Assembly (NCBI RefSeq): GCF_004349105.1
Contig: NZ_SMLB01000013.1
Coordinates: forward strand, 62,001 to 126,000
Direction: 5' to 3'
Length of the DNA stretch: 64,000 nucleotides
Source of the DNA: Jiangella aurantiaca
GTDB lineage: Bacteria; Actinomycetota; Actinomycetes; Jiangellales; Jiangellaceae
The position numbers and the translations under genes are program-made. The notes beneath the pieces were generated by a model. The model worked only from the letters and a program-made list of their open reading frames with translations, was not told the origin of the DNA and searched no databases. The stretch's first letter is position 1. Every line of letters begins with the position of its first letter. Below are positions 35,056 to 41,164 of this stretch, in pieces.

Positions 35056-36486
35056 TCAGTGGACCGGCACCACCGTCGTCGCCGGGCGGCCCGCCGGGAC
35101 CAGCACCGATGCGACCAGCCCGGCGACGACCGCGGCCGCCGCACCGGCCGCGTAGGCGCTGGTGAAGCCGCCGGTGCCGGTGGCGCCGGGGGCGAGGTCG
35201 GCGGCCGCGATGCTCGACGCGAGGGCGACCCCGAGCGCCGCGCCGAACTCGTGGAACGTGTTCACGATGCCCGAGGCCAGGCCGGCGTCGTGGTGGTCGA
35301 CGTGCGCGAGGGCACTGGTGGTGGCGGTGACGAATGTCGCCCCGAGCCCGGCGGTGCCCACGCTCATGCCCGTCACCAGCAGGGCCGTGTCCGAGGCGCC
35401 GTCGCCCCGGATGGTGGCGACGGCGGCGAGAGCGAGCCCGGCCGCGGCGACGGCGAACGCGACGGCCGCTACGAGGCGGGGGCCGGCCCGGCCGACGGCT
35501 CGGCCGCCCACGTGCGCACCGGCCGCTACCGCGACCGCCACCGGCAGGAACAGCACGCCGGTGATGAGGGCGCCGTGGCCGCGGACGTGCTGCAGGAAGA
35601 ACGAGCCGAGGAAGAACGCCGAGATCAGCAGCCCGGTCGCGACCAGCATGAGCAGCACGCCGGTCAGTACGGGCCGCCGGGTGATGAGCCACGGATCGAT
35701 GAGGGGCGCTCGCAGGCGTCGCTGCAGCACGGCGAAGACGGTGTAGAGGACCAGCGCGGCGGCGACCGGCACGACGGTCGAGGAGCCCGTCCAGCCGTCG
35801 TCGCCGGCATTGACCAGGCCATAGATGAGGGCAGCGGTGCCGACGGTGACGAGCACGGCGCCGGGCACGTCCAGTCGCCGTGGACCGGGGCTGCCGGCGT
35901 GCGACGAGGCGGCGCGCCGGGTGGGCAGCAGCCGCCTCAGCAGGGCGACCAGCACGAGCCCGACCGGCACGTTGACGTAGAAGATCCAGGACCAGCCCGG
36001 ACCGGCGGTGAGCAGCCCGCCGACCAGCACGCCGGCCGCCGACCCGGCGCCGCCCAGCGCCGCCCACACGCCCAGCGCGCGGTTGCGCTCCGTCCCGTGG
36101 AACGTGGTCGCGACGATCGACAGCGCGGCGGGGGAGAGCAGCGCGGCCCCGGCGCCCTGGGCGACGCGGCCGCCGATCAGCGACTCGGCGTTCCATGCCA
36201 GCCCGCTGACCAGCGACGCCGTCGTGAACAAGGTCAGTCCGGCGAGCACGATACGGCGGGCGCCGACGAGGTCGGCCAGCCGGCCGCCCAGCAGGAGCAG
36301 ACCGCCGAACATCAGCGTGTACGCCGAGACCACCCACGTCAGCGCGGTGCGCGACAGCGACAAGTCGGCGCCGATGTCCGGCAGCGCCACCGCCACCACC
36401 GTGACGTCGAGCACCAGCATGAACTGGGCCAGGCCGAGCAGCGTGAGAAGCCGCCAACGGTCGGCGGCGGGCGGATGCATGGACAT
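35056..36486 (-). CDS. DHA2-family MFS multidrug exporter
   Basis: A 476-residue, 14-helix exporter of the EmrB/QacA type. Helix 1 carries LDVTVVAVALPDIGADL (motif D1), the 2–3 loop LGGRLADLVGARR (motif A) and helix 5 the antiporter motif C region (GGAGSAAGVLVGGLL). It is divergent from a TetR gene with two matching operators between them, so it is probably drug-inducible. It ends 14 bp before the ECF41 promoter region. Confidence 0.9.
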   Translation of the reverse strand: MSMHPPAADRWRLLTLLGLAQFMLVLDVTVVAVALPDIGADLSLSRTALTWVVSAYTLMFGGLLLLGGRLADLVGARRIVLAGLTLFTTASLVSGLAWNAESLIGGRVAQGAGAALLSPAALSIVATTFHGTERNRALGVWAALGGAGSAAGVLVGGLLTAGPGWSWIFYVNVPVGLVLVALLRRLLPTRRAASSHAGSPGPRRLDVPGAVLVTVGTAALIYGLVNAGDDGWTGSSTVVPVAAALVLYTVFAVLQRRLRAPLIDPWLITRRPVLTGVLLMLVATGLLISAFFLGSFFLQHVRGHGALITGVLFLPVAVAVAAGAHVGGRAVGRAGPRLVAAVAFAVAAAGLALAAVATIRGDGASDTALLVTGMSVGTAGLGATFVTATTSALAHVDHHDAGLASGIVNTFHEFGAALGVALASSIAAADLAPGATGTGGFTSAYAAGAAAAVVAGLVASVLVPAGRPATTVVPVH

Positions 36487-36501
36487 CTCAAGCTCCTAAC
36501 C

Positions 36502-36517
36502 TGAACAACTATGTTCG
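36502..36517. promoter_or_regulatory. TetR operator O1
   Basis: TGAACAACTATGTTCG: GAACA-N4-TGTTC symmetry, 15 bp upstream of the MFS start. Confidence 0.7.
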
Positions 36518-36539
36518 ACTTATGCACGGTACAGTAACT

Positions 36540-36555
36540 CGAACAATGCTGTTCG
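36540..36555. promoter_or_regulatory. TetR operator O2
   Basis: CGAACAATGCTGTTCG: the same half-sites with a perfect 6-bp arm, 38 bp (about 3.6 turns) from O1 and 18 bp before the tetR ATG. Both divergent promoters would be covered. Confidence 0.7.
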
Positions 36556-36573
36556 ACAAGGTGGGAGACCGAG

Positions 36574-37179
36574 ATGCCGGTCACGACAGGCAAGCGCGCC
36601 GACGCCCAGCGCAACGTCGCGGCGATCCTGGACGCCGCCGCGGCCTGCCTCGTCCGCGACCCGGACGCCAGCGTCTCCGACATCGCCGCGGCGGCCGGTG
36701 TGGGCCGGGTGACGCTCTACGGCCACTTCGCGTCGCGCACCGAGCTGGTCGACGCGGTGTTCGTCCGCGCCGTGACCCGGGCGCACGAGGCGCTGGACGC
36801 CGTCGACCTCACCGGCGACGCCCGGCAGGCGCTGGCGCGGCTGGTCGCGTCCAGCTGGCAGGTGATCGACGAGTCGCGGATGTTGCTGGTCGCCGCGCAG
36901 CACACGCTCCCACCGGAGCGGATCCGCAAGCTGCACGAGAACCCGATGCGGCGGGTCCGCTCACTGCTCGAGCGCGGCCGCGCGGCCGGCGTGTTCCGGT
37001 TCGACCTGCCCGCTGACTGGCTGGTCGCCGTCTTCTACACCGTCGTGCACGGCGCGGCAGACGAGATCGGCGCCGGGCGGCTGGCCGCCGAGGCCGCGGC
37101 CGACGCGATCACAGCCACGCTGCTGGCCGCCTTCACGCCGCCCGGCGACCCCGTTCCCCAGGTGACGGCCACGGGATGA
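36574..37179 (+). CDS. TetR-family repressor of the divergent MFS exporter
   Basis: A 201-residue regulator. The N-terminal HTH (about residues 14–58) reads ILDAAAACLVRDPDASVSDIAAAAGVGRVTLYGHFASRTEL; the rest is an all-helical ligand domain. GTGGGAGA precedes the ATG. The GAACA-N4-TGTTC sites in the shared 87-bp promoter region are the likely target. The inducer is unknown. Confidence 0.88.
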   Translation: MPVTTGKRADAQRNVAAILDAAAACLVRDPDASVSDIAAAAGVGRVTLYGHFASRTELVDAVFVRAVTRAHEALDAVDLTGDARQALARLVASSWQVIDESRMLLVAAQHTLPPERIRKLHENPMRRVRSLLERGRAAGVFRFDLPADWLVAVFYTVVHGAADEIGAGRLAAEAAADAITATLLAAFTPPGDPVPQVTATG

Positions 37180-37186
37180 CCGGCGG

Positions 37187-38398
37187 TCACCAGATGTCGA
37201 CGGTGTGAGCGGCGACCAGGGCGGCGATGCGGGCGACCGCATCGGCGGCGGGCAGCGCGTCCAGCCGGCGGCCGTCGCGCAGCCGCACCGCGACCTCGTC
37301 CGCGCCGGCCTCACGGGCACCCACGACCGCGACGTACGGGACCAGCCGGGCGGCGTGGACGCGGGCGCCGACGCTGCCCTGCTCTGCGCCTGCGACCTCG
37401 ACCCGCAGTCCGGCGTCCATGCACCGCCCGGCCACCGCCCGCGCGGCCTCGTCCTGCTCCGGTCCCACCGGCACCAGCACCACCTGCACCGGCGCCAGCC
37501 ACGGCGGGAACGCGCCACCGTGCACCTCGATGAGCTGCGCGACCGCCCGCTCCAGGCTGCCGATGACGCTGCGATGCACCATCACCGGCCGGTGCCGCTC
37601 GCCGTCGGCGCCGACGTACTCCAGGCCGAACCGCTCCGGCTGGTGGAAGTCGATCTGGACGGTGGACAGGGTCGACTCGCGGCCGGCGGCGTCGGCGATC
37701 TGCACGTCGATCTTGGGGCCGTAGAACGCGGCCTCACCCTCCTGGGACTCGTAGTCCGATCCGGATGCCTCCAGCGCCTCGACCAGCAACGCGGTCGACC
37801 GCTCCCACGCGGCCGGCGCTCCGGCATACTTGCCGCCGGGACCCGGCAGCGACAGCCGAAGCCGCGCGGGTGCGATGCCCATCGCGGCGTGTGCGGCGCG
37901 GATCAGCTCCAGCGCGGCGGCGGCCTCCTCGGCCGCGTCCGACGCGGCGCAGAAGACGTGCGCGTCGTTGAGCTGGATCGACCGCACCCGGGTCAGCCCG
38001 CCGAGCACGCCGGACGCCTCGGAGCGGTACATGCCGCCGAGCTCGGCCAGCCGCAGCGGCAGCTCGCGATACGAGCGGCCGCGCGAGCGGTAGATCAGCG
38101 CGTGGTGCGGGCACAGGCTCGGCCGCAGCACGAGCTCCTCGCCGCCGACGTCCATCGGCGGGAACATGTCGTCGCGGTAATGCGCCCAGTGGCCCGACAG
38201 CTCGTACAGCTCGCGTTTGGCCAGCACGGGGGAGTGGACGTGTTGGTAGCCGGCCCGCCGTTCGGCGGTGTGGACGTACTCCTCGAGCGCGTGGCGGACG
38301 GCGGCGCCGGCCGGCAGCCAGTACGGCAGGCCGGCGCCGATGAGCGGATCGGAGCCGAACAGGTCCAGCTCGCGGCCGAGCCGGCGGTGGTCGAACAT
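37187..38398 (-). CDS. Threonyl-tRNA synthetase without TGS and editing domains
   Basis: A 403-residue class-II synthetase that matches only the catalytic and anticodon-binding parts of ThrRS. Zinc/active-site ligands are kept: Cys96 in RPSLCPHH, His147 in NDAHVFC and His275 in PVMVHRS, with motif 3 GSLERAV and the anticodon domain opening WLAPVQVVLVPV. Ordinary ThrRS is about 640 residues; the N1 (TGS) and N2 (editing) domains are absent, not mutated. The ATG at 38398 has GGAG 8 bp upstream; a longer open frame upstream is not ThrRS. It is probably a second, specialised copy. A Thr-rich leader peptide and alternative hairpins precede it. Confidence 0.88.
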   Translation of the reverse strand: MFDHRRLGRELDLFGSDPLIGAGLPYWLPAGAAVRHALEEYVHTAERRAGYQHVHSPVLAKRELYELSGHWAHYRDDMFPPMDVGGEELVLRPSLCPHHALIYRSRGRSYRELPLRLAELGGMYRSEASGVLGGLTRVRSIQLNDAHVFCAASDAAEEAAAALELIRAAHAAMGIAPARLRLSLPGPGGKYAGAPAAWERSTALLVEALEASGSDYESQEGEAAFYGPKIDVQIADAAGRESTLSTVQIDFHQPERFGLEYVGADGERHRPVMVHRSVIGSLERAVAQLIEVHGGAFPPWLAPVQVVLVPVGPEQDEAARAVAGRCMDAGLRVEVAGAEQGSVGARVHAARLVPYVAVVGAREAGADEVAVRLRDGRRLDALPAADAVARIAALVAAHTVDIW

Positions 38399-38418
38399 CG
38401 TGGTCTCCTCGAAACAGA

Positions 38419-38461
38419 GGGCGAGTGACCACACGGCGGCGCTCCGGGGCACTCGCCCCGG
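38419..38461 (-). promoter_or_regulatory. Mutually exclusive hairpins in the thrS leader (attenuator candidate)
   Basis: Hairpin 1 pairs 38455–38461 with 38444–38450 (GCCCCGG/CCGGGGC, 4-nt loop). Hairpin 2 pairs 38450–38458 with 38419–38427 (9 bp, GGGCGAGTG with CACTCGCCC). They share bases 38450–38458, so only one can form. Hairpin 2 ends 11 bases before the GGAG of the synthetase gene. A third pairing joins the end of the leader ORF (38484–38489) to 38437–38442. Confidence 0.6.
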
Positions 38462-38478
38462 GCGTCGGTGGGTAGGAA

Positions 38479-38529
38479 TCAGCGCGCCGGGACCGTCTCC
38501 GGCGTCGTCGTCAGCTGGGCGCGCTGCAT
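38479..38529 (-). CDS. Thr-rich leader peptide upstream of the truncated thrS
   Basis: A 16-codon ORF, MQRAQLTTTPETVPAR, with four Thr codons, all ACG, three of them consecutive at positions 7–9. It ends 80 bp before the synthetase ATG, just ahead of alternative hairpins. On the same strand TACGGT (38542–38537) lies 7 bp before its ATG, predicting a leaderless start exactly at this codon. Ribosome stalling at the Thr codons when charged tRNA-Thr is scarce would fit classical attenuation. The peptide itself needs no function. Confidence 0.6.
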   Translation of the reverse strand: MQRAQLTTTPETVPAR

Positions 38530-38536
38530 GGCGCCG

Positions 38537-38542
38537 ACCGTA
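38537..38542 (-). promoter_or_regulatory. −10 element for the thrS leader transcript
   Basis: TACGGT on the minus strand, 7 bp before the leader ATG. No good −35 is visible. Confidence 0.45.
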
Positions 38543-38627
38543 GCATCCGGCCGACGGTGAACGCCCGCGGATTACGTTGAGCGCGGGAAGACGCCTAGTG
38601 CGACGGCTGTCGCCGGGCCGCGCCGGC

Positions 38628-38712
38628 TCAGGCGGCCGTCCGCTCGCTGCGATACCGGCCCGGCGGCCGGGCGTACTCGTGCTCGAACGCGGCGGCGAAG
38701 GCGAACTCCCGC
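38628..38712 (-). pseudogene. C-terminal tail of an AraC-family regulator
   Basis: The minus strand reads EFAFAAAFEHEYARPPGRYR and then SERTAA followed by a stop at 38628. This is the second helix-turn-helix end of AraC proteins (usual form EFAFAxAFRREYGxxPGRYR). Nothing upstream continues it: at 38704–38712 it meets the FMN-reductase remnant read on the other strand. A deletion junction is therefore inside these few bases. Confidence 0.6.
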
Positions 38713-38932
38713 CCGGACCGCGTCGGCCCCGCCGTCGCCCAGTGGGTCCTCGACCTCGCCGGACGGCGCGGCGACGCCGACTACGAAGTCGTCGACCTCG
38801 CCGACTTCGACCTCGACGGCCGGCGCCGTGCGAGCGCCAGGTGGCGGCCGCTGGGACGATGCTCGACGAGCTCGTCGCCTGGGCGGACACGCTGGCGCCG
38901 CTGCGTGCCGCCACTGCCCGTGATGATCAACG
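38704..38932 (+). pseudogene. NADPH-dependent FMN reductase remnant with internal deletion
   Basis: The plus strand starts with NSRPDRVGPAVAQWVLDLAG, then EVVDLADFDLDG: the phosphate-loop and strand-2 region of NAD(P)H:FMN reductases (usual form GSTRPGRxGxAVAxW). In another frame MLDELVAWADTLAPLRAA follows at 38859, the family's C-terminal helix. About 100 residues between the two parts are missing, and the start codon is lost. Confidence 0.6.
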
Positions 38933-40171
38933 GCCGGCCGGGCCGAGGTCGTCGACATCGCGGACGCCGCGCAGCGCCCACCAGACCGGCAGCGGCGTCA
39001 GCAGCGTCAGGACGCCGACCACCCAGAGCGTCGCCCGCGGCCCAGCCAACTCGCCGAGCACGCCGCCGGCCAGACCGCCGAGCGGGAACGCGCCCATGAT
39101 CAGCACCCGCATGGTCGCGTTGACCCGGCCGAGCAGCTCGTCCGGGGTGATCCGCTGGCGCAGGCTCACGCTCGCGATCGCATAGATGATCTGGCCGACC
39201 TCGCCGGCGCCGATGCCCACGATCAGGAATGCGATCGCCGTCCAGCCGGGTTCGGCCAGCGGGATCAGCAGGCCGGCCGGGCCGGTGACGGTGAGGCACA
39301 GCCAGGCGAGCCGGGCCGACCCCACTCGCCGCGACAGCCAGGGCGTCACCGCGGCGGCGGCCAGCACCGTCGCCGACCCGGCCGCGACGATCAGGCCGAT
39401 CGCCGACGGCGGCAGCTCGAGCGTCCGGGCCATGAAGATCATCGAGACCGCGGCGGCGACGGCGAAGCAGAAGTTGGCGACGGCACTGGTCAGAGCGGTG
39501 GCACGGAGTGCGGGGGTGTGCCGGACGAAGGCGAGGCCGGCGCGGATCTCGGCACGCAGGTGCGTGCGCTCGGCCCGTGACGGCGCGGGCTCGGGGGTGC
39601 GGATCGCGGCCAGCGCGGCCGCCGACACCGCGAACGTCACGACTTGAATCAGTACGACGATCGCCCCACCGAGGAGCCCGGTCAGCCAGCCGCCCAGGCC
39701 CGGGCCGGCGAACTGGCCCGACGCGCGCACCGTCTCCATGGCGGAGTTGCCGGCCAGCACCCGGTCGCGGCCGATGACGACCGGCAGGTAGCTCTGGTAC
39801 CCGATGTCGAAGAACACCCGGGCGACGCCGGTCAACAGAGCGACCACGATCAGCTGGGTCACCGTCACCACGCCGGCGACCGCCGCGAGCGGGATGGTGG
39901 CCAGCAGGAGGGCACGAGCAACGTCGGCGGCGATCAGCACCGGCCGGCGGCGGAGGCGGTCGATCCAGGCGCCGGCGGGCAGTCCGATGACGGCGAACGC
40001 GACCGTCGACGCCGCCGCCAGCAGCCCGGCCTCGAGCGCGGACGCGCCGAGCGTGACGACGGCGAGCAGCGGGATCGCGATGCCGCTGACCTGAGCGCCG
40101 AACTGACTGGTCGTCTGGCCGAGCAGGAGCAGGCGGAAGTCGCGCTGCCGCAGTGGGGAAGGGGTGGACAC
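38927..40171 (-). CDS. MFS exporter (DHA3-like, 12 helices)
   Basis: A 414-residue transporter of the macrolide/enterobactin-exporter type: N-terminal RDFRLLLLGQTTSQFGAQVSG, then AGAWIDRLRRRPVLIAAD (motif A) and about 12 helices. I start it at GTG 40171, which lies 5 bp after GGAGG; the ATG at 40183 has no ribosome site. The product is full length. It lies between the FMN-reductase remnant and a large palindromic element upstream. Substrate unknown. Confidence 0.87.
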   Translation of the reverse strand: MSTPSPLRQRDFRLLLLGQTTSQFGAQVSGIAIPLLAVVTLGASALEAGLLAAASTVAFAVIGLPAGAWIDRLRRRPVLIAADVARALLLATIPLAAVAGVVTVTQLIVVALLTGVARVFFDIGYQSYLPVVIGRDRVLAGNSAMETVRASGQFAGPGLGGWLTGLLGGAIVVLIQVVTFAVSAAALAAIRTPEPAPSRAERTHLRAEIRAGLAFVRHTPALRATALTSAVANFCFAVAAAVSMIFMARTLELPPSAIGLIVAAGSATVLAAAAVTPWLSRRVGSARLAWLCLTVTGPAGLLIPLAEPGWTAIAFLIVGIGAGEVGQIIYAIASVSLRQRITPDELLGRVNATMRVLIMGAFPLGGLAGGVLGELAGPRATLWVVGVLTLLTPLPVWWALRGVRDVDDLGPAGR

Positions 40172-40197
40172 CAAGGCCTCCATCGATCGGGCGGGTA

Positions 40198-40242
40198 GTG
40201 CCCCACCCGCCGGCGACGGAGGCGTCGCTAGGGGTGGGGTAC
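40198..40242. repeat. Nested inverted repeat upstream of the MFS gene
   Basis: Outer arms 40198–40208 and 40232–40242 pair 10 of 11 (GTGCCCCACCC with GGGTGGGGTAC). Inside, GCGACG and CGTCGC (6 bp) flank a GAGG loop. It starts 27 bp upstream of the MFS GTG, so an operator or 5'-leader structure is likely. Confidence 0.55.
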
Positions 40243-40378
40243 GTTACCCGTCGCTCGGCGGAGGGCCAATCCGGCGTCGGCGCGTTGTACCGCTTAGCGG
40301 CTCGTAGCGCTTTCGAGGCCCGCTGGCTGCACGGTGGGCGTTCGTGCACCGCACCCGGGCTGACGCCGGTGGGCGCAG

Positions 40379-41164
40379 GTGGAACAGGAGCGACTCCATC
40401 CACGGAGACGTTCGTTGACAACCGTCGTCTTCTTCGTCCACCTCGCTGCCACCCTCGACAACTGGGACCCCCGGATCATCGACCCCATCGCCAAGGGTCG
40501 TCACGTCATCGCCTTCGACAATCGAGGTGTCGGGGCGTCCACGGGCCGGGTGCCGGACAGTGTCGAGGCGATGGCCGACGACGCCTACACGTTCATCAAG
40601 GCCCTCGGCTTCGACAAGATCGACCTCTTCACCTTCTCGCTCGGCGGCTTCGTCGCCCAGGCCCTCGTGGTGAAGCACCCGGAGCTCGTCCGCAAGCTCG
40701 TCCTCACCGGCACCGGGCCGAAGGGCGGCAAGGACATCGACAAGGTCGCCGGCACTAAGTATCGGGACATACTGCGTGCCGCCCTGACCCGGTCAGACCC
40801 CAAGGAGTTCCTGTTCTTCAACCGCAACGCCACTGGCAAGCCCGCCGCGCGCGCGTTCGTCAACCGGCTCAAGGAGCGCACGGTCGACCGCGACGCACCG
40901 TTCAAGCTCCCGGCGCTCCAAACGCAGCTGAAGGCGATCAAGAAGTGGGGGCGCTCCACCCCCGACGACCTGTCGACGATCACCCAGCCCACCCTGATCG
41001 CCAACGGCGACAACGACCGCATGGTGCCCTCGGTCCTCTCCGAAGACCTCCACCGCCGCATCAAGGGGTCCGAGCTGATCATCTACCCCGACTCCGGTCA
41101 CGGCGGCATCTTCCAGTTCCACGAGAAGTTCGCCCCCGTCGCCGTCGAGTTCCTCGCCCGATGA
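40379..41164 (+). CDS. Alpha/beta hydrolase, N-terminally shortened
   Basis: A 261-residue hydrolase of the haloperoxidase/esterase type. Oxyanion region FFVHLAATLDNW, nucleophile Ser in FTFSLGGFVAQ, acid in ANGDNDRMVPS and His in DSGHGGIF are all present. Family members usually have about 30 more residues before VVFFVHL; here that part is replaced by unrelated residues. A neighbouring frame just upstream reads STETFVDN, which looks like a lost N-terminus. The GTG at 40379 or TTG at 40414 (7 bp after GGAGA) could start a shortened protein. It may be inactive. Confidence 0.7.
   Translation: MEQERLHPRRRSLTTVVFFVHLAATLDNWDPRIIDPIAKGRHVIAFDNRGVGASTGRVPDSVEAMADDAYTFIKALGFDKIDLFTFSLGGFVAQALVVKHPELVRKLVLTGTGPKGGKDIDKVAGTKYRDILRAALTRSDPKEFLFFNRNATGKPAARAFVNRLKERTVDRDAPFKLPALQTQLKAIKKWGRSTPDDLSTITQPTLIANGDNDRMVPSVLSEDLHRRIKGSELIIYPDSGHGGIFQFHEKFAPVAVEFLAR

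Follow-up and report, generated by a model that had tools for sequence, protein, structure and literature searches.

What controls a second, short threonyl-tRNA synthetase gene without an editing domain, and is the threonine-rich reading frame in front of it a regulatory leader? The question arises in Jiangella aurantiaca, where this gene lies on the minus strand of the 64,000-nucleotide stretch of contig NZ_SMLB01000013.1 that we analysed (hereafter, the window). Its product of 403 amino acids (38398-37187; thrS2 type by profile and domain matches) exceeds the cut-off of the thrS profile TIGR00418 (426.5 versus 383.65 bits) and carries the class II core and the anticodon-binding domain, while the domain search finds no tRNA_SAD in it, a domain present in the full-length ThrRS of the same genome; the original prediction of an editing-less thrS is thus borne out. 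That full-length enzyme (L001:1471-3558) has itself no match to TGS (Pfam, E<=0.001). As judged from sequence comparison, the region upstream of the short gene is a real, conserved leader-peptide attenuator, in which a Thr-rich leader and competing hairpins probably switch on a spare, editing-less ThrRS when Thr-tRNA is short.

The leader had been predicted as a short ORF rich in threonine, and this is what the minus strand holds: positions 38529-38479 form a 16-codon ORF, with counterparts in the homologues, that translates into MQRAQLTTTPETVPAR followed by a stop codon, and each of its four Thr codons reads ACG. Three of them make up the putative control run (ACG ACG ACG, 38511-38503). The triple Thr run is kept in 59/59 leaders of the class, with ACG at the three positions in 57/59, 59/59 and 59/59; as background, in 37 window ORFs picked by a GC filter ACG accounts for 347 of the 920 Thr codons. 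Uniform ACG may point to control by the charging of one isoacceptor, or to a requirement of the RNA. The locus therefore shows the short ORF with repeated control codons that is expected of a leader-peptide attenuator, its translation being predicted.

Does this leader belong to the short thrS, or did the two meet by chance? Both occur together in all 12 genomes of the genus. Across 393 genomes of the class we found 61 orthologues of the short thrS (E<=1e-112), 59 of them with a TTT leader upstream and two (L069 and L077) for which the contig ends too close upstream to judge; homologues lacking the ORF or its Thr codons had been sought and the claim of a Thr leader stood. The short ThrRS is also encoded in 97 of 199 Streptomyces genomes, with 99 matches, four of which were already in the class set, all with the leader. 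Among the 95 further matches, 92 carry a Thr leader (89 from the automatic search, L212 and L296 by inspection, and L306). The 89 automatically found leaders comprise 86 with TTTP, two with TTP (L265 and L276) and one with TTAP (L268), and the three leaderless matches are L239, L304 (a partial second copy) and L305 (a divergent second copy). The missing full Thr run in L265, L268 and L276 and the missing leader in L239 count as evidence against an attenuator. L239 has lost the leader ORF and retains hairpin A as well as the ribosome site and the strand leading up to it (see below), making it a natural test case for constitutive control. In L305 (G405:C316), the second ThrRS-like gene has diverged further (54% identity) and sits within an open frame of 896 aa.

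The association holds equally when the leader is the starting point. Among the matches listed, the short thrS lies next downstream in 116 of 119 leader-DNA matches from named genomes (79/80 and 37/39 in two sets, the 39 loci L173-L211 having served for this count only), some of these thrS matches being short where the DNA record ends inside the gene; in the other three (L145, L175 and L202) the record ends at most 76 nt from the pattern start, before any downstream gene. With two mismatches allowed, the leader pattern is found in 54 of the 393 class genomes, against none for the backward control, and 52 of the 54 also have the short ThrRS, the exceptions being G236, whose match is 164 nt away from the end of a contig, and G369, whose match carries two mismatches. 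The genera among the matches listed are Streptomyces, Kitasatospora, Amycolatopsis, Nocardia, Nocardiopsis, Kribbella, Frankia, Nonomuraea and Streptosporangium. The position of the leader upstream of the short thrS, kept within the genus and far outside it, appears to be more than chance. Two further possibilities were rejected: a viral or mobile origin, since the leader pattern had no match in the viral collection, and a Thr leader before full-length thrS genes, since among 20 loci of the family a TTT short ORF occurs only at L041, about 410-420 nt from the end of the searched stretch, and was taken as chance.

Where would the leader transcript start? The hexamer TACGGT (38542-38537), indeed 7 nt before the leader ATG as had been noted from the sequence, is preceded one base upstream by TG (TGcTACGGT) and is a predicted -10 element. 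It was recognised by comparison, a scan of 37000-39500 having returned no consensus sigma-70 promoter: a TANNNT stands 6 or 7 nt upstream of the in-frame leader start in 138/138 leaders, and a -10 element at this distance from a start codon would put the transcript start at or next to that codon. The leader of L296, which is not among the 138, is without the TANNNT. Of these 138 records, 59 were reached through the protein and 79 (among the matches listed) through the leader pattern, so that the sample is biased for leader letters.

Upstream of the -10 element by 27 nt, we read GTAATC (38575-38570), a one-mismatch copy of the WblC/WhiB7 box GAAAWY that the original prediction had omitted, together with helices C and 1:2 described below. 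The exact box, ending 26-28 nt before the -10, occurs in 50 of 137 homologous leaders, and only two further occurrences were seen elsewhere in the 60 nt upstream of these leaders. The genome encodes a WhiB protein with an RGRP motif (L312), which we take to be the hallmark of WhiB7. In S. coelicolor, the accessible text of the WblC study places the box 3 nt before the -35 element with a spacer of 16-19 nt, which converts to 25-28 nt before the -10, and lists thrS2 among the WblC-activated genes (PMC7157823). The window copy may be under WblC control as well. Five of the 12 genus copies (L009, L010, L011, L013 and L015) have, ahead of the leader promoter, an inverted repeat of the type ATCCTA-N9-TAGGAT, perhaps an operator, which is absent upstream of the window promoter.

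Downstream of this start, the leader RNA offers a series of alternative pairings. Region 1 (AGCGCGCC, 38525-38518) can fold with the near-invariant region 2 (GTCCCGGCGCGCT, 38493-38481), whose GGCGCGCT pairs with region 1 (helix 1:2) and whose GTCCCGG can pair instead with the 5' arm of hairpin A (helix 2:A); in L036, L037 and L091, helix 1:2 is formed from different letters, as seen by eye. Hairpin A (CCGGGGC-GAGT-GCCCCGG, 38461-38444), identified by folding and comparison, is terminator-like without a U tract: a consensus scan of 37000-39500 found no U-tract terminator, and at least 6 T in 12 nt around the end of A occur in only 18/138 copies. Helix B, recognised by comparison, joins GGGCGAGTG (38458-38450) to CACTCGCCC (38427-38419). 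Hairpins A and B had been predicted to share 38450-38458 and so to exclude each other, and their overlap there is confirmed. Both exist, yet the picture of two competing hairpins was incomplete. A third helix, C, supported by folds and comparison, pairs GTGGTC (38432-38427) with GACCAC (38405-38400) and CTCG (38425-38422) with CGAG (38411-38408), and so lies over the thrS ribosome-binding site GAGGAG (38410-38405), found after the hairpins and upstream of the ATG at 38398 as expected and kept in homologues. Because helix C covers the ribosome site, control may act on translation besides, or instead of, transcription, and a second layer of control at this site is probable.

As a single sequence, the leader RNA is only mildly unusual in its fold (z -2.47; 4/200 shuffles equally good). 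The predicted absence of a T-box held, and T-box or any other known RNA family was rejected, no Rfam match being found at E<=1 within 36000-41000. The layout varies in some copies. L036 and L037, from another genus of the family, have TTTP leaders and a different layout after the stop codon, an outer pairing of the CCCACGA/TCGTGGG type replacing the usual hairpin A (by eye); L110, L129 and L150 have extra hairpin-like insertions between A and the 3' strand of helix B, with the B strand kept.

Are these helices maintained as pairs? For the partner-swap, slide and folding tests we used 118 of the 138 records, 20 being dropped as duplicates or for unclean automatic segmentation (among them are some in which the automatic hairpin choice went wrong, such as L011, L089, L093 and L106; it is doubtful in L160, which was kept). 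When own partners were compared with swapped ones across the 118 sequences, A, B and C scored z values of -19.5, -10.0 and -8.8, against +1.4 to +2.1 for four unrelated segment pairs, +0.9 for reversed C and a slightly negative -2.6 for reversed B. The stems proposed to covary in homologues therefore appear to do so, A, B and C each preferring their own partner. No covariation signal was obtained for 1:2 (z +0.96) or 2:A (z -0.23), because these segments hardly vary; neither value was counted as support, and the basis for these two helices is their invariance and the few rebuilt copies. In the alignment, where pairing and double-change counts ignore kinship, helix B is 93.7% paired with 43 double-change cells (slid versions reach at most 60.3% and 14), hairpin A is 91.2% paired (at most 63.9% when slid) and helix C 80.0% (at most 60.6%), double changes in A and C being no more frequent than in slid versions. 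In its loop part, B shows complete replacements such as GAGCG/CGCTC, GGGTG/CACCC, AAGTG/CACTT and GGATG/CATTC, and in many variants (for example L008, L010, L062, L141 and L172) compensation is merely partial.

Folding with a ribosome placed in silico indicates how the leader might choose. When the 3' arm of A is still missing and the ribosome sits on the first Thr codon, helix 2:A forms in 117/118 leaders with a mean of 9.7 expected pairs, versus 0/118 when the ribosome stands at the stop codon; in ribosome-free leaders helix 1:2 appears instead, and four pairs of 2:A are reached in 13/118. If region 2 is shuffled, the mean drops to 5.5 pairs, and 4.7% of shuffles come up to the observed value. 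In these models, the difference between stalling and reaching the stop codon follows the logic of a classical attenuator. On the completed leader A wins in all three ribosome states at equilibrium, so that the choice would have to be kinetic, made during transcription; equilibrium folding was set aside as an arbiter because it did not settle the switch. Excluding the 3' arm of A lets B take the place of C, with the ribosome site opening in 59/118 and closing in 0/118. Region 2 and helix B compete for the same G bases of A. If all but the last three bases of the 5' arm of A are blocked, in imitation of region 2, the site opens in 26/118 and closes in 12/118, the window copy changing little (0.22 to 0.29 unpaired), which makes the passage from 2:A to B the weakest step.

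On balance, we think it fairly probable that a leaderless thrL-type attenuator controls the second, editing-less ThrRS (thrS2 type) along the following steps. Transcription would begin at the leader ATG from a WblC-type promoter. As long as Thr-tRNA for ACG is sufficient, the ribosome would reach the leader stop codon and cover region 2, and hairpin A would form; either transcription would then end, or the strand before the thrS ribosome site would be free to close helix C, leaving thrS2 off. When Thr-tRNA is short, the ribosome would stall on the ACG run with region 1 beneath it, and on the nascent RNA region 2 would capture the 5' arm of A, so that A is delayed and transcription continues. 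In this antitermination state the strand before the ribosome site would pair with the A-loop strand (helix B), C would stay open and thrS2 would be on. In a leader that is not translated, helix 1:2 would protect region 2 and favour the off state. The conservation of the leader, the promoter position, the own-partner pairing of A, B and C and the linkage to the short thrS are established by the comparison, and we infer the order of events, the response to threonine, the shares of transcription and translation, the passage from 2:A to B and WblC control of the window copy. The original interpretation is upheld in part: comparison lends good support to ribosome-mediated attenuation, through the Thr run, covarying alternative helices, a fixed geometry and linkage to the short thrS only.

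Could the element work at one level alone? A purely transcriptional attenuator, with A as terminator, 2:A as antiterminator and B and C modulating read-through or simply structuring the ribosome site, would account for the classical geometry of 1:2, 2:A and A and for the T-rich tails that follow A in some copies (L156 and L116, for example). We think it unlikely, because B and C, downstream of A, are maintained by own-partner pairing, the consensus scan finds no terminator in the window, and the accessible text on thrL of S. lividans describes a leader that depends on threonine, has a single hairpin and lacks a stretch rich in uridine (PMC8079986). The converse, a switch in which A never terminates and the leader ribosome merely decides between C (closed) and B (open), is in keeping with the covariation and mutual exclusion of B and C and with the opening of half of the ribosome sites, 59/118, once the 3' arm of A is blocked. 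Such a purely translational device seems to us decidedly unlikely, given that region 2 touches A and not C, and that the equilibrium victory of A in every ribosome state places the decision during transcription.

Other readings concern the nature of helix B or of the ORF itself. B might be a pseudoknot in which the loop of an intact A pairs with the strand ahead of the ribosome site, A and B then coexisting: five loop pairs do hold 41 of the 43 double-change cells of B. The A loop is only 4 nt long in most copies, however, and C-to-T changes opposite G bases of the A stem (19, 11 and 33 cells) suggest that stem bases also pair in B, so that we regard the pseudoknot as quite improbable. We give very little credence to a functional small peptide with RNA structure secondary, for which the wide retention of the pattern M[QK]RA...TTTP[ED]xVPAR in class and Streptomyces leaders could be cited. 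The residue following TTTPE/D is free to vary, the RA and PAR codons coincide with helix 1:2 and the Thr codons are uniformly ACG; moreover, in L076, L082 and L225 the C-terminal half of the peptide is frame-shifted while the DNA of region 2 keeps its letters, which favours a role of the RNA over the peptide.

The leaderless attenuator acting during transcription, with a further layer at the ribosome site, is thus our preferred reading, and what had been annotated in one strain becomes a regulatory element of wide distribution. A synthetase that lacks an editing domain is linked by it to a shortage of threonine and, probably, to the antibiotic-stress response under WblC. A bolder version, which we hold with somewhat more doubt than conviction, would see three controls in one element: a WblC promoter, an ACG-only leaderless leader and a hairpin whose loop strand frees the ribosome site, one ribosome decision setting both transcription and translation across actinomycete families. 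If true, cells would give up fidelity in exchange for charging capacity only during a shortage of Thr-tRNA under translation stress. The locus also offers a testable case of one leader acting on transcription and translation with a strict single control codon.

How does this compare with known systems? In E. coli, the synthetase operon pheST is controlled by leader-peptide attenuation, for another amino acid and in another phylum. We know of no ribosome-site helix of type C in pheST. That attenuator is named as an example in an Actinobacteria survey, the accessible text of which describes leader-peptide attenuators of aminoacyl-tRNA synthetase genes closer to ours, trpS2 and leuS of Streptomyces, from the same bacterial group and for other amino acids, and reports no conserved RNA structures upstream of threonine operons (PMC1262725); leuL2 and trpL2 also appear in PMC8079986. 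ThrRS T2 of Anabaena is likewise a second ThrRS that is stress-expressed and editing-defective, although, as far as the available text goes, its response is to a lack of zinc, and it still has an editing domain in degenerate form (PMC4787780). The leader promoters described here agree in box, spacing and start distances with the WblC/WhiB7 regulon of S. coelicolor, for which the accessible text mentions a uORF attenuator for wblC itself and not for thrS2 (PMC7157823). SCO3778 is called a threonyl tRNA synthetase in the available part of another report (PMC10771440); it is absent from the main text of PMC7157823, and we do not equate it with thrS2.

The closest relative is thrL, placed upstream of thrS in S. 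lividans TK24 in 2021 with a leaderless start seen by RNA-seq (PMC8079986), so that the original statement that no threonine leader of an actinobacterial synthetase gene had been described was wrong; in the open-access literature, this is the only report of such a leader that we found. Within its accessible text, the report covers one strain, two threonines, one hairpin and unclear termination, and we found there no alternative pairings, covariation, distribution or promoter box of thrL. The main texts of the open-access literature likewise yielded no description of the wide distribution, the A/B/C alternatives or the link between leader and WblC. What is known already, then, is thrL before thrS in S. 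lividans and thrS2 as a WblC target in S. coelicolor. The window and its homologues show the thrL pattern in peptide sequence and in -10 position, and L276, a leader in front of a short ThrRS, encodes exactly the S. lividans thrL peptide, MKRVRPFLETTPGFVPAR: as far as the available text describes it, thrL is the same element, a leaderless Thr leader before a ThrRS gene (PMC8079986).
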